From an uncultured Pedosphaera sp. (GTDB lineage Bacteria > Verrucomicrobiota > Verrucomicrobiia > Limisphaerales > Pedosphaeraceae), in the NCBI GenBank assembly GCA_903918755.1, contig CAIXFN010000111.1, positions 1 through 64,000 of the forward strand: 64,000 bases of DNA, in the 5' to 3' direction. The position numbers and the translations under genes are program-made. Numbering within the stretch: the first letter of the stretch is position 1; each line of letters opens with the position of its first letter. This document shows positions 11,493 through 15,026 of this stretch, in pieces. The notes below the pieces were generated by a model. That model searched no databases. It was not told where the DNA came from and saw only the letters and a list, made by a program, of their open reading frames with translations.

Positions 11493-12470
11493 TTAGGCGG
11501 CGACGGGAACGGATTCCGAGAAACGGCCCAGGGCGCGAAAACGGTCGTAACGCTGCTTCAGCAATTCGGGTAGGGGCTTCTGTTCCAGCTCGGCCAGATG
11601 CCGCAGGAGGGATTCCCGCAGCGTTTGGCCGGCGGCGGCGGGCTGGGTGTGGGCGCCGCCGAGGGGTTCGGGTATTACGTCGTCCACCAAACCGAGTTCG
11701 AGCAGGTGGCGGGCGGTGATTTTGAGGGCTTCCGCGGCTTTGGGAGCGGCGGCCCGATCCTTCCAGAGGATGGCGGCGCAGCCTTCGGGGCTGATCACGG
11801 AATAATAGGCGTTTTCCAAAATCAGCACACGATCCGTCACGCCGATGCCGAGCGCTCCGCCGGAACCGCCTTCCCCAATCACGGCGGCAATGGTGGGCAC
11901 GCGCAGAAGCATCATCTCGCGGAGGTTTACCGCGATGGCTTCGGCGATGTGGCGTTCCTCGGCGCCGATGCCAGGGTAAGCGCCGGCGGTGTCGATCAGG
12001 GTAATGATCGGCAAACCAAATTTATCGGCCAAACGCATGAGGCGCAAAGCCTTGCGATAACCCTCCGGATGGGCGGAACCGAAATTGCGCCGGATGTTTT
12101 CCTTGGTATCGCGACCCTTTTGAGTGCCGATCACCACCACCTTTTTCCCACCCAGACGGGCAAATCCGCCGACGACAGCGCGATCTTCGGCATAAAGCCG
12201 ATCGCCATGCAATTCGTTAAAGTCCGTGAACGCGCTGGCCAGGTAATCCAGGGTAAAAGGTCGCTTGGGATGGCGGGCGAGTTGAACCCGCTGCCAAGGG
12301 GTCAGATTGGTAAAAATCTGTTTACTCGTCTCGATGATCTTGACCTCGATCCGCCGAATCTCATCCTCCACATCCACCCCGACGGGATGGATGGAAGCCT
12401 GCCGCCGGAGATCGTCCAGGCGTTTCTTGAGATCGTAAATCGGCCTTTCAAAATCCAGCAGATTTTTCAT
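11493..12470 (-). CDS. accA: Acetyl-CoA carboxylase carboxyltransferase subunit alpha
   Basis: AccA is one half of the carboxyltransferase that makes malonyl-CoA, the first committed step of fatty-acid synthesis. The 325-residue protein starts MKNLLDFERPIYDLKKRLDD and contains the crotonase-fold signature region with GDRLYAEDRAVVGG, TLIDTAGAYPGIGAEE and IGEGGSGGALGIG, the last forming the oxyanion/CoA site. The length is normal. It follows a structured RNA candidate and terminator 60 nt upstream, so expression might depend on read-through or on an RNA switch. The next gene, manA, is 12 bp away. Confidence 0.97.
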   Translation of the reverse strand: MKNLLDFERPIYDLKKRLDDLRRQASIHPVGVDVEDEIRRIEVKIIETSKQIFTNLTPWQRVQLARHPKRPFTLDYLASAFTDFNELHGDRLYAEDRAVVGGFARLGGKKVVVIGTQKGRDTKENIRRNFGSAHPEGYRKALRLMRLADKFGLPIITLIDTAGAYPGIGAEERHIAEAIAVNLREMMLLRVPTIAAVIGEGGSGGALGIGVTDRVLILENAYYSVISPEGCAAILWKDRAAAPKAAEALKITARHLLELGLVDDVIPEPLGGAHTQPAAAGQTLRESLLRHLAELEQKPLPELLKQRYDRFRALGRFSESVPVAA

Positions 12471-12525
12471 GTGCCTTCGAGTTTAAGTTTTCCGGACGGC
12501 CCGCGCAATGGCGAATTCGGTACGC

Positions 12526-12550
12526 AAAAAGAGCCAGATTGCTCTGGCTC
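12526..12550 (-). terminator. Intrinsic terminator upstream of accA
   Basis: On the minus strand an 8-bp perfect stem GAGCCAGA / TCTGGCTC with a four-base loop (12531-12550) is followed directly by TTTTTG. It ends the structured RNA region and lies 55 nt before the accA start codon, so it either ends the zwf-pgl/RNA transcript or acts as an attenuator for accA. Confidence 0.8.
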
Positions 12551-12676
12551 AGTGATGAGAAGGTTAATACGCCTTCACCGAGGCGCTCAGAAGGGCAGTG
12601 AGGCCACCTGTTTCCGTTGCTCGAACCTCACCACTAGCATAACCTTTCTGCCAACCCTAAACGAGCAACGACGATC
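12526..12676 (-). ncRNA. Unassigned structured RNA candidate upstream of accA
   Basis: The 250 bp between pgl and accA carry nested complementary segments when read on the minus strand. CGTTGCTCG (12662-12670) is perfectly complementary to CGAGCAACG (12615-12623). AAGGTTA (12640-12646) pairs with TAACCTT (12560-12566). GTGAGG (12626-12631) pairs with CCTCAC (12598-12603). The 9-bp pairing crosses the other two, so the fold would be a pseudoknot with the hairpin loop captured by the 5' end. A small GC hairpin (12571-12584) and an intrinsic terminator complete it. It does not contain the SRP GGAAG..AGCAGCC motif, tmRNA ends or RNase P core. It could be a standalone RNA or a leader controlling accA. 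Confidence 0.5.
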
Positions 12677-12721
12677 ACATATAGATAGACCGGGGTGCCG
12701 GGATTTCGTTCAGCAGATTTC

Positions 12722-13435
12722 TTAAAAAATTAAATCAGTAAAAATTCGGGTCATCCCCCGCGACTTGACGACCCGGCCGAACGGGGTACCGCCCGCCGGG
12801 GACAAGGATTCGCGCAACGCCGCCTCCTTGCCTTGGCCGGACGCCAGCATCCAGACTTCCGTGGCGGCCGCGAGCGCGGCGTAGCCAAGGGTAAACCGGC
12901 GTGGGGGCGGTTTGGGGGTCGTTACGGCACGATAAATCGCCGGACTACCGGCAATTGCCTCCGGCTCACCGGGAAACAAAGAAGCCACATGGCCTTCCTC
13001 GCCCATGCCCAGAAAAACCAGGTCCAGCACCGGCTGGCCCCCGGCATTCACCGGCGCATGCGTCGTGATTTCAGTCACCGCCCGGGCCAGAGCCACCGCT
13101 TCTGGCTCCTCCCCGCGCAACCGATGCACCTGGCCGGCCGGAATCGCGAGCGGATCCAACAGGGTTTGCCGAGCCAGCAAATAATTGCTGTCGGGATGTT
13201 CGGGCGCAACGCAGCGCTCGTCGGCCCAGAAGAAATGGACATTCTCGAAGGAGGTTCCGCGGGCGAGCGCCCCATGGGCGACCGCCTCGAAAAAGACGCG
13301 CGCAATTCGCCCCCCGGAGATGGCCACCGTGTAGGGGCACGCCGGATTCCGAGCCGCCAACTGGTCCAGCCAGGCGCCCGCCGCCGCTTGCGCCAGGGAA
13401 AGATCACCGGCGAACGGGAAAAGGGCGAAGTTCAT
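12722..13435 (-). CDS. pgl: 6-phosphogluconolactonase
   Basis: This enzyme hydrolyses 6-phosphogluconolactone in the oxidative pentose phosphate pathway. From the Met at 13435 (MNFALFPFAGDL) the protein has 237 residues, the usual size for the DevB/Pgl family. Family motifs are VAISGGRIARVFFE, FFWADERCVAPEHPDSNY and LGMGEEGHVASLFPG. The open frame continues another 94 residues upstream, but that extension lies inside zwf and has no family resemblance. It follows zwf by 25 bp, and the pair forms an operon for the first two steps of the pathway. Confidence 0.95.
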   Translation of the reverse strand: MNFALFPFAGDLSLAQAAAGAWLDQLAARNPACPYTVAISGGRIARVFFEAVAHGALARGTSFENVHFFWADERCVAPEHPDSNYLLARQTLLDPLAIPAGQVHRLRGEEPEAVALARAVTEITTHAPVNAGGQPVLDLVFLGMGEEGHVASLFPGEPEAIAGSPAIYRAVTTPKPPPRRFTLGYAALAAATEVWMLASGQGKEAALRESLSPAGGTPFGRVVKSRGMTRIFTDLIF

Positions 13436-13460
13436 GGTCGGAGTAGGGAGTGGAGCCCGC

Positions 13461-15026
13461 TTACTTGTTCGCTTGCGGATTGCGCCACACATGCCCGCGC
13501 TGGGCGAGCAAATCTTCAGACGCCACCGGCCCCCAGGTACCGGCGGAATAAAATTCGCGGTTGGTGAGCGCCTGACCATTCCAGCCCTGGCGGATGGAAT
13601 CCGCAATGGACCACGCGGCCTCAACTTCGTCGCTGCGGATGAACAGCGTGGCATCGCCGGCCACCGCTTCCAGCAGCAAACGCTCGTACGCCTCCGGGGT
13701 ATAGGCGCCAAATTCACTGTTGTAGCTGAACGACATCCGGACCGGCCGCACGCTGGTGCTGGTCCCGGGCACTTTGCCGTTGAAGCGCAGGGAGATGCCT
13801 TCTTCCGGCTGCAGCCGCAGGGTAAGAGCGTTGGGATCGAGCTTGGTGCCGCATTGGGCGGCGAACAGGACGTTCGGCGTGGGGCGGAACTGGATCCGGA
13901 CTTCGCTGGCGCTCAACGGAAGGTATTTTCCGGTGCGCAGATAAAAAGGCACGCCGGACCACCGCCAATTGTCCACAAACAACTTCAAGGCGACGAAGGT
14001 TTCGGTGTTGGAGTCGGACTTCACCTTGGGCTCCTGCCGGTAGCCGGGGCGCAGTTCGCCATCGACCGTGCCGGCAAAGTACTGGCCGCGGACGACGTTT
14101 TTCGCCACGTCCGCCGGGGTTAACGGGCGGATGGATTTGAGCAGCTTCACTTTTTCATCGCGAATCGGCTCGGCATCCAGGGAAACCGGCGGTTCGATGG
14201 CGACCAGCGACATGACCTGGAGCAAGTGGTTCTGGACCATGTCCCGCAGGGCGCCAGCCTCCTCGTAGTACCCGCCGCGCTGCCCCACCCCCAGGCTTTC
14301 GCTGACGGTGATTTGGACGTGATCCACGGAATCCCGGTTCCAGAGGCGTTCAAAAATGGAATTGGAAAAGCGGAACATCAAAATGTTCTGCACCGTCTCC
14401 TTGCCGAGATAATGGTCGATGCGGAAGACCTGCCGTTCGCTGGCGTAGCGGGTGAGCTCGGCGTTTAATTGGCGGGCGGAGGCGAGATCGTGGCCAAAGG
14501 GCTTTTCCACGACCAAGCGCTGCCAACCGGGCCCCTCTTCGCCCTTGCGCAGAAGCCGCGCCTCGTGCAACTGCTGGACACATTCGCCAAACTGGCTCGG
14601 CGAGGTGGCCAGGTAAAAAAGCAAATTGTCCCGGAGCGCCGGCTGCCCGAACGAGGTGAGCATTTGTTCCAATTTGCCATAGGCGGCGGAGTCGGAGAAC
14701 TCACCCTGGCAATAAAACACATTGGCGGCGAATTCCGTCCAAACCTGCTCATCCACCGGCTTGGTGCGGGAAAACTGGTTCAGGGCGGCGCGCAATTCCG
14801 TGCGCCAATCGGCATCGGATTTCTCGCGGCGGGCAAAACCGATGACCCGGTAGGACGAGGGCAGTTGCTTTTCCTTGTGCAAATGATAAAGGGCCGGAAT
14901 CAATTTGCGCGCGGTCAGATCACCGCTGGCACCGAAGATCACGATGGAACAGGGCTCCACGGTCTTCCGGGTCTGGTTCAGACGGCACACCATCAGCTCA
15001 TCCAGTTGATCATCCATGGCGGGCAC
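13461..15026 (-). CDS. zwf: Glucose-6-phosphate 1-dehydrogenase
   Basis: This enzyme oxidises glucose 6-phosphate to 6-phosphogluconolactone with NADP, opening the oxidative pentose phosphate pathway. The 521-residue protein has the coenzyme motif GASGDLTARKL at about 32-42, the EKPFGHDL motif at 174-181 and the substrate-binding RIDHYLGKE at 202-210, containing the active-site His and Lys. The C-terminal domain carries the RNxxWSxxxV-like segment in the form VDNWRWSGVPFYLRTGK. It is the first gene of a zwf-pgl unit. Gnd is not present nearby. Confidence 0.97.
   Translation of the reverse strand: MPAMDDQLDELMVCRLNQTRKTVEPCSIVIFGASGDLTARKLIPALYHLHKEKQLPSSYRVIGFARREKSDADWRTELRAALNQFSRTKPVDEQVWTEFAANVFYCQGEFSDSAAYGKLEQMLTSFGQPALRDNLLFYLATSPSQFGECVQQLHEARLLRKGEEGPGWQRLVVEKPFGHDLASARQLNAELTRYASERQVFRIDHYLGKETVQNILMFRFSNSIFERLWNRDSVDHVQITVSESLGVGQRGGYYEEAGALRDMVQNHLLQVMSLVAIEPPVSLDAEPIRDEKVKLLKSIRPLTPADVAKNVVRGQYFAGTVDGELRPGYRQEPKVKSDSNTETFVALKLFVDNWRWSGVPFYLRTGKYLPLSASEVRIQFRPTPNVLFAAQCGTKLDPNALTLRLQPEEGISLRFNGKVPGTSTSVRPVRMSFSYNSEFGAYTPEAYERLLLEAVAGDATLFIRSDEVEAAWSIADSIRQGWNGQALTNREFYSAGTWGPVASEDLLAQRGHVWRNPQANK

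Follow-up and report, generated by a model that had tools for sequence, protein, structure and literature searches.

The spacer between pgl and accA in the window (the whole 64,000-nt stretch of DNA analysed, from an uncultured Pedosphaera sp.) carries on its minus strand a conserved element (Table 1) that, judged by sequence comparison, would represent a new structured RNA family of the order Limisphaerales. The preferred reading, to which we give a probability of about 0.85, is a stand-alone non-coding RNA gene of about 150–165 nt, with a double pseudoknot and with a promoter-like sequence and a terminator of its own, whose product acts in trans. The RNA would be made as its own short transcript, probably starting some nucleotides upstream of 12671, and would work as a compact folded molecule. 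The E-value listed for the window RNA was obtained with a covariance model whose training set includes the window's own sequence. The pgl gene as called probably starts too early, because its open reading frame overlaps zwf.

Table 1. Features of the RNA locus and its neighbours, in window coordinates
Feature	Positions	Strand	Evidence or remark
accA, acetyl-CoA carboxylase carboxyltransferase alpha	11493..12470	minus	Pfam ACCA 7e-140; neighbour, outside the RNA
accA promoter-like element: ATTGC (12509-12505), TAAACT (12485-12480), 9 nt to ATG	12480..12509	minus	family element 3′ of the terminator
Conserved RNA, PK1 start to end of U-tract	12526..12671	minus	model match 1-150 of 150, E 1.2e-31; DNA homologues
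Intrinsic terminator: 8-bp stem 12550-12531 plus U5 12530-12526	12526..12550	minus	terminator scan
PK2 3′ strand UCAUC, just 3′ of P2	12554..12558	minus	covariation
P2 3′ strand TAACCTT	12560..12566	minus	covariation
P4 hairpin 3′ strand AGGCGU	12569..12574	minus	sixth pair 12581-12574 covaries
PK2 5′ strand GGUGA, P4 loop	12575..12579	minus	covariation
P4 hairpin 5′ strand GCGCCU	12581..12586	minus	6 bp with 12574-12569; not crossed by PK1
J3/4 joining segment CCUUCUGA	12587..12594	minus	unpaired in model; UCUGAGCG nearly invariant
P3 3′ strand CCTCACTGC	12595..12603	minus	covariation
PK1 3′ strand CGAGCAACG, within P3 loop	12615..12623	minus	covariation
P3 5′ strand GTGGTGAGG	12626..12634	minus	9 bp, two G-U here; covariation
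P2 5′ strand AAGGTTA	12640..12646	minus	7 bp with 3′ strand; covariation
J1/2 joining segment UUUAGGGUUGGCAGA	12647..12661	minus	unpaired in model; strongly conserved; GGGT invariant 29/29
PK1 5′ strand CGUUGCUCG	12662..12670	minus	pairs with 12623-12615
RNA promoter-like element: -35 CTGAAC (12713-12708), 16-nt spacer, -10 GGTCTA (12691-12686)	12686..12713	minus	family consensus
pgl, 6-phosphogluconolactonase-like, upstream neighbour	12722..13717	minus	Pfam PF01182, 8.5e-52

The preliminary description of this locus, which was made from the sequence alone, had pointed to a pseudoknotted RNA in front of accA, and the elements it named can be read directly on the minus strand. The perfect 9-bp complement is formed by CGTTGCTCG (12670–12662) and CGAGCAACG (12623–12615), and it crosses two nested stems: P2, with the 7 bp described, and P3, with 9 bp, the inner six of which are Watson–Crick and correspond to the 6-bp stem described. 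The distance of 55 nt from the intrinsic terminator (12550–12526) to the accA ATG at 12470 was also given correctly. A second pseudoknot, pairing 12579–12575 with 12558–12554, had been missed.

Within the single sequence, the evidence for structure goes barely beyond chance. A perfect 9-bp inverted repeat is present in 4.2% of 2000 dinucleotide shuffles, and the fold stability of the region is about that of its shuffles (z = −0.84, with 40 of 200 shuffles as good). P2 and P3 are formed differently in the minimum-energy fold than in the model, the 5′ strand of P3 being paired elsewhere. Terminator-like sites number four in the 901-nt region, against 1.0 expected. With a z of −0.84 the fold energy of one sequence is uninformative, and it is the comparison of relatives that settles whether the structure is real.

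The elements follow each other, 5′ to 3′, as the PK1 5′ strand, J1/2, the P2 and P3 5′ strands, a 2-nt loop, the PK1 3′ strand, a second loop (11 nt in the window copy), the P3 3′ strand, J3/4, the P4 hairpin, whose loop contains the PK2 5′ strand, the P2 3′ strand, the PK2 3′ strand and the terminator. The predicted fold thus consists of two H-type pseudoknots, one of PK1 and P3 and one of P4 and PK2, tied together via the shared helix P2. Strong conservation begins at PK1.

Two alignments were used to examine the helices, one of 29 sequences built without structure and one of 103 matches built on the nested helices, without the pseudoknots. The 103 matches come from 100 of 161 loci, of which 139 had been compared for duplicates and L150–L154 were added to these (L155–L161 were left out), and form a non-random sample in which five matches are tandem copies in two loci. 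In the 29-sequence alignment, PK1 was paired in 93.1% of cases, P2 in 95.1%, P3 in 99.2% and both P4 and PK2 in 100%, and changes on both sides of a pair were found at 5 of 9 pairs in PK1, 6 of 7 in P2, 7 of 9 in P3, 0 of 5 in P4 and 4 of 5 in PK2. With 103 matches, paired cells made up 97.7% (PK1), 95.9% (P2), 99.7% (P3), 100% (P4) and 99.6% (PK2), and both-side changes reached 7/9, 7/7, 8/9, 0/5 and 4/5, respectively. The five P4 pairs scarcely vary in the larger set; among 14 matches in genomes whose copies are multiple or divergent, which overlap partly with the 103-match alignment, both-side changes were seen in three of six P4 pairs. For the 29-sequence alignment, 500 shuffles were scored by five measures, and on none of these did a single shuffle attain the observed value; when the 3′ strand was shifted by 1–3 columns, pairing fell from 87.8% to 36–47%. 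The structure used in both controls included the poorly aligned terminator helix, which is 51.6% paired. The sets of 103 and 14 matches behaved likewise, with 0/500 shuffles at the observed values and the signal abolished by sliding. Conservation of the pairing in related genomes was one of the points on which the preliminary description had staked its proposal. The pairing is conserved, and all three stems it named covary in both alignments.

All pairs of columns in the 103-match alignment were also scanned, with five rows omitted (three truncated ones, L082 and L098). The ten highest-ranking pairs comprised eight pairs of the model, the sixth P4 pair (12581–12574) and one pair in the terminator region. 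Model pairs made up 18 of the 45 pairs listed, including four from PK1 and one from PK2; most of the others listed are non-complementary, and shared descent may lie behind them. In one locus (L126) two other complementary strands, UGACGGC and GCCGUCA, take the place of most of PK1. In a divergent copy, L184:1487-1632, a separate hairpin occupies, by inspection, the position of the PK1 3′ strand, which suggests that PK1 can be lost.

The joining segments are nearly constant across the family, reading GGGUUGG.AGA in J1/2 and CUUCUGA in J3/4. Two further pairings between them were considered and rejected. A 4-bp helix of CAGA in J1/2 with UCUG in J3/4 was left out of the model, as the J1/2 side varies against a constant UCUG: of the 103 matches, 49 have CAGA, 37 CATA, 12 TATA and two another sequence, UCUG being unchanged, and three are unreadable. 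An A-U to G-C type change at this helix is present in two divergent copies (L176 and L182). For the pairing AGGG with CCCU, the GGG is invariant and the C side variable. A small protein was discarded as an explanation, since by inspection the indels among homologues are not multiples of three and the changes track the pairing. Conservation along the RNA peaks at the 12-nt unit CTTCTGAGCGCC, which occurs as six tandem repeats within one copy (L082:7391-7462), either a biological expansion or an assembly artefact.

A DNA search gave accepted matches in 28 of 57 other genomes, most of them spanning the equivalent of about 12671 to 12527. The raw search at E 1 had matched 49 of 58 genomes, mostly by short chance matches, from which L009–L036 were kept; L037 was dropped after alignment. 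The covariance model built from the 29 sequences, applied at E 0.01, gave matches in 110 of the 245 Limisphaerales genomes sampled, 29 of them from the training set and 81 outside it. Four more of the 58 genomes (G013, G035, G040 and G055) were positive by the covariance model and not by the DNA search. The other 135 of the 245 gave no detected copy under the strict filters used, some of these genomes being incomplete. In a draw of 288 genomes from the phylum the model, at E 0.1 and under strict filters, matched the genome of the window and none of the 287 others, of which the 20 listed are all marked as belonging to the same class. The strict filters may overlook divergent copies, the E-values of the model are rough, and the genomes are mostly metagenome-assembled. 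When laxer filters and a second model were applied to 25 Limisphaerales genomes that had appeared negative and to 11 genomes from other relatives, eight had a match at E 1, the best being E 0.026 and 23.6 bits in G016.

An exact core pattern, scanned against the named genome collection, was found in 92 stretches. Among the 80 of these that were listed, 69 are titled Verrucomicrobia (or -ota, -les, -iia), Limisphaerales, Limisphaera or Pedosphaera; the order Limisphaerales lies within Verrucomicrobiota in the NCBI taxonomy. The other 11 are five entries titled 'bacterium', two Akkermansia, one Methylacidimicrobium, and one each of Omnitrophota, Patescibacteria and Hyphomicrobiales. The last three (L073, L098 and L137) are taken to be mis-binned contigs; L073 is probably a mis-binned Limisphaerales contig, as zwf and accA adjoin the RNA there too.

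The RNA corresponds to no known family at gathering score, either in the window or in six homologous loci, when searched with the covariance models of Rfam 15. A hit to a known family would have told against the proposal of the preliminary description, which by motif had matched the RNA to none of the common classes. The only window matches at the gathering threshold are two tRNAs, neither of them at the RNA, and tmRNA (RF00023) is not among these two matches. The element might still be an established RNA, housekeeping or regulatory, in a form too diverged for the Rfam models to recognise, and matches below threshold do exist. In a permissive search of 12460–12760 the best match was PinT (RF01404), with 27.4 bits against a gathering score of 60; in ten homologous loci searched at E 2, PinT was absent, and one of them, a divergent homologue, matched ar35 (RF02346; 24.2 bits against 45) and ncS011 (17.1 bits against 48). 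Six further loci searched at E 5 gave neither PinT nor ar35, and one match overlapping the RNA, to ctRNA_pGA1 at E 5. In our reading these weak matches lean on the terminator hairpin. PinT and ar35, which are stand-alone intergenic sRNAs, resemble the RNA in size class and in having a terminator, but the scores are far below gathering and neither match recurs. The 6S RNA is likewise free-standing and of similar size, but it is a separate locus in the same genome: the genome's single match to RF00013 is at C101:175618-175799, and its matches to bacterial SRP RNA (RF00169) and RNase P RNA A type (RF00010) are at C30:61854-61950 and C96:55075-55468, all three above the cut-off and away from the RNA. 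Descent from one of these known RNAs is therefore extremely unlikely.

Searches of the open-licence literature on noncoding, structured or small RNAs of Verrucomicrobia or Limisphaerales listed no description of the RNA. Clade-specific structured ncRNA candidates from earlier comparative-genomic surveys (PMC2864571, PMC8632094, PMC11109978) are similar in being intergenic, in having covarying structure and in their limited range; the RNA described here differs from them in its two interlocked pseudoknots and in sitting in the order Limisphaerales. The main texts of PMC11109978 and PMC8632094 contain none of the Verrucomicrobia genus stems tried and no accA, and a term count for PMC2864571 gives no 'verrucomicrobi'.

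The RNA is preceded by a promoter-like sequence. A family consensus, TTGAAC-N16/17-TATCTA, scores at least 9 of 12 in 89 of the 99 loci with enough upstream sequence, compared with 28 of 297 dinucleotide-shuffled copies; the count is biased in favour, because the consensus was itself derived from these loci, so that the promoter evidence is descriptive. The window element scores 9, as does ACGAAA-N16-TATCTA, which lies 4 nt downstream of it. On the minus strand of 12300–13200, a generic sigma-70 scan gave no promoter-like site. At the other end, 93 of the 103 matches have a stem of 6 bp or more and, after it, four or more T in 8 nt. By sequence, the RNA is thus bounded by a promoter-like element and a terminator of its own, as a stand-alone non-coding RNA would be, and it has conserved covarying structure.

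Neighbouring genes were assigned with a simple ORF caller and with Pfam on 20 chosen proteins (17 neighbours and three from the window). A same-strand accA start lies within 400 nt downstream of 64 of the 103 matches, at gaps of 45–398 nt (median 68 nt), and pgl or zwf lies within 600 nt upstream on the same strand in 62. There is no accA start within 400 nt in 39 matches, for 33 of which the downstream sequence extends for 1000 nt or more (L133 has accA at 425 nt), and no pgl or zwf link in 41, nine of which have <900 nt of upstream sequence. Of the matches with ample flanks (900 nt or more upstream and 1000 nt or more downstream), 18 have neither neighbour, five of these being the tandem copies in two loci. 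Where accA is missing, the annotated downstream genes include, on the same strand, an aldehyde dehydrogenase and a GFO/IDH oxidoreductase and, on the opposite strand, a response regulator as well as four convergent genes, for an FAA hydrolase, a PTR2 transporter, an alpha/beta hydrolase and a CHASE2 kinase.

These neighbourhoods bear on two cis-linked explanations. Pseudoknotted riboswitches in terminator-controlled leaders are a known class and, like the RNA described here, they are short and intergenic and combine a pseudoknot with a terminator. The preliminary description had accordingly raised, besides a stand-alone RNA, a metabolite switch on fatty-acid synthesis, that is, a riboswitch or attenuator in the accA leader whose ligand would shift the pseudoknots and so the terminator. 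The frequent same-strand accA a short way past the RNA, with the terminator in between, fits such a switch. However, the lack of accA downstream of 39 matches, with neighbours that vary and are in some cases convergent, means that accA does not follow the RNA family-wide as it would follow a leader. Moreover, the terminator arms share, by inspection, no strand with another conserved helix, so that no antiterminator is visible.

The accA gene also frequently has a promoter-like element of its own, 3′ of the RNA terminator. This element (GTTGC or ATTGC, 18–20 nt, then a TAAACT-like sequence) scores at least 9 of 11 in 36 of 63 accA-linked loci, against 11 of 1260 mononucleotide shuffles, with a consensus that was picked after viewing the same loci; the 63 are the distinct ones among the 64 accA-linked matches. 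Its distance to the ATG is 7–9 nt in 26 of the 36 and 26–30 nt in eight. The sequence GAATTC stands just 5′ of the element in many accA-linked loci. When other consensus sequences were applied to the gap between the RNA and accA (53 of the 64 accA-linked matches), the RNA's own gave no enrichment (mean score 7.21, against 7.13 in shuffled sequence) and the generic TTGACA/TATAAT a slight one (7.66 against 7.14), the smallness of which is a point in favour of a leader. The element suggests that accA is often transcribed from a separate promoter, as a message that is leaderless or almost so, in which case the RNA would lie outside the accA message. Compared with the pseudoknotted leader riboswitches, then, the Limisphaerales RNA has no constant downstream gene and no visible antiterminator, and in 36 of 63 loci a promoter-like element intervenes before accA. 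We consider a cis-acting switch in the accA leader highly improbable, and it is the stand-alone RNA of the preliminary description, found with and without accA and flanked by a promoter-like element and a terminator, that the sequence data support.

The upstream linkage suggests a different origin, in which the RNA would be processed out of the 3′ end of the zwf-pgl message, as 3′-UTR-type RNAs are, and would regulate carbon or NADPH metabolism. The 62 matches with pgl or zwf upstream on the same strand are what it would predict, but the promoter-like sequence ahead of the RNA in 89 of 99 loci, the 41 matches in which the link is missing and the tandem copies that lie away from zwf-pgl in L151 all argue against it, and we regard it as very unlikely. 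Given how frequent both linkages are, a functional tie of a stand-alone RNA to zwf-pgl or to accA is conceivable.

For the stand-alone RNA, the working surface would most likely be formed by the two joining segments, in contact with a protein or by base-pairing with target messages. They are read as partner contacts because they are conserved though unpaired, beside helices that change yet stay complementary. A protein-bound RNA or scaffold is tentatively placed first among the possible roles, a base-pairing regulator second, and other roles, including ligand sensing or catalysis, last; the slight preference for a protein partner is a judgement, based on a rigid multi-pseudoknot fold being unusual for a plain antisense regulator. 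A bolder possibility than binding by a protein, which we think doubtful but worth stating, is that the RNA is a machine in its own right with a fold not described before, forming the core of a new ribonucleoprotein or acting in trans as a ligand-sensing or catalytic RNA, and not a simple antisense regulator.

In its layout of crossing helices the RNA brings to mind ribozymes with nested pseudoknots, such as the HDV-like ones. A self-cleaving or ligand-binding RNA released as a free transcript would account for the compact multi-pseudoknot fold, for the nearly constant joining segments and for conservation that starts at PK1. However, no Rfam ribozyme or riboswitch matches at threshold, and the order of helices is unlike that of HDV-like ribozymes, the PK1 3′ strand being placed within the P3 loop; this explanation is very unlikely.

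Regulatory RNAs of Verrucomicrobiota seem to have been little studied; one review tabulates 345 distinct sRNAs in Proteobacteria and 8 in the entire PVC group (PMC9029176). A covarying structured RNA that has no Rfam family and is found in a large part of the sampled genomes of a mostly uncultured order is a concrete target, for which RNA boundaries, a model and compensatory mutants can be defined now. A specific partner is suggested by the double pseudoknot and by the near-constancy of the joining segments, and function could be approached through the tandem copies and the frequent zwf-pgl and accA linkage.

Several genomes have more than one copy. G242 has five, three of them in tandem ∼250 nt apart, and G214 and G234 have three each. 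The tandem copies at L175:2113-2758 (the three of G242, contig C72) and at L077:2746-3136 (two) are flanked in both loci by a gene for glutathione peroxidase on one side and, on the other, by a convergent gene for an alpha/beta hydrolase, the gene names being from Pfam for L077 and otherwise from shared BLAST clusters. Two low-scoring extra copies, L176:1503-1651 (G046) and L177:1666-1814 (G234), occur beside a standard copy, and their terminator hairpin is not clear in the alignment; they are possibly paralogues of a different role, or decayed copies.
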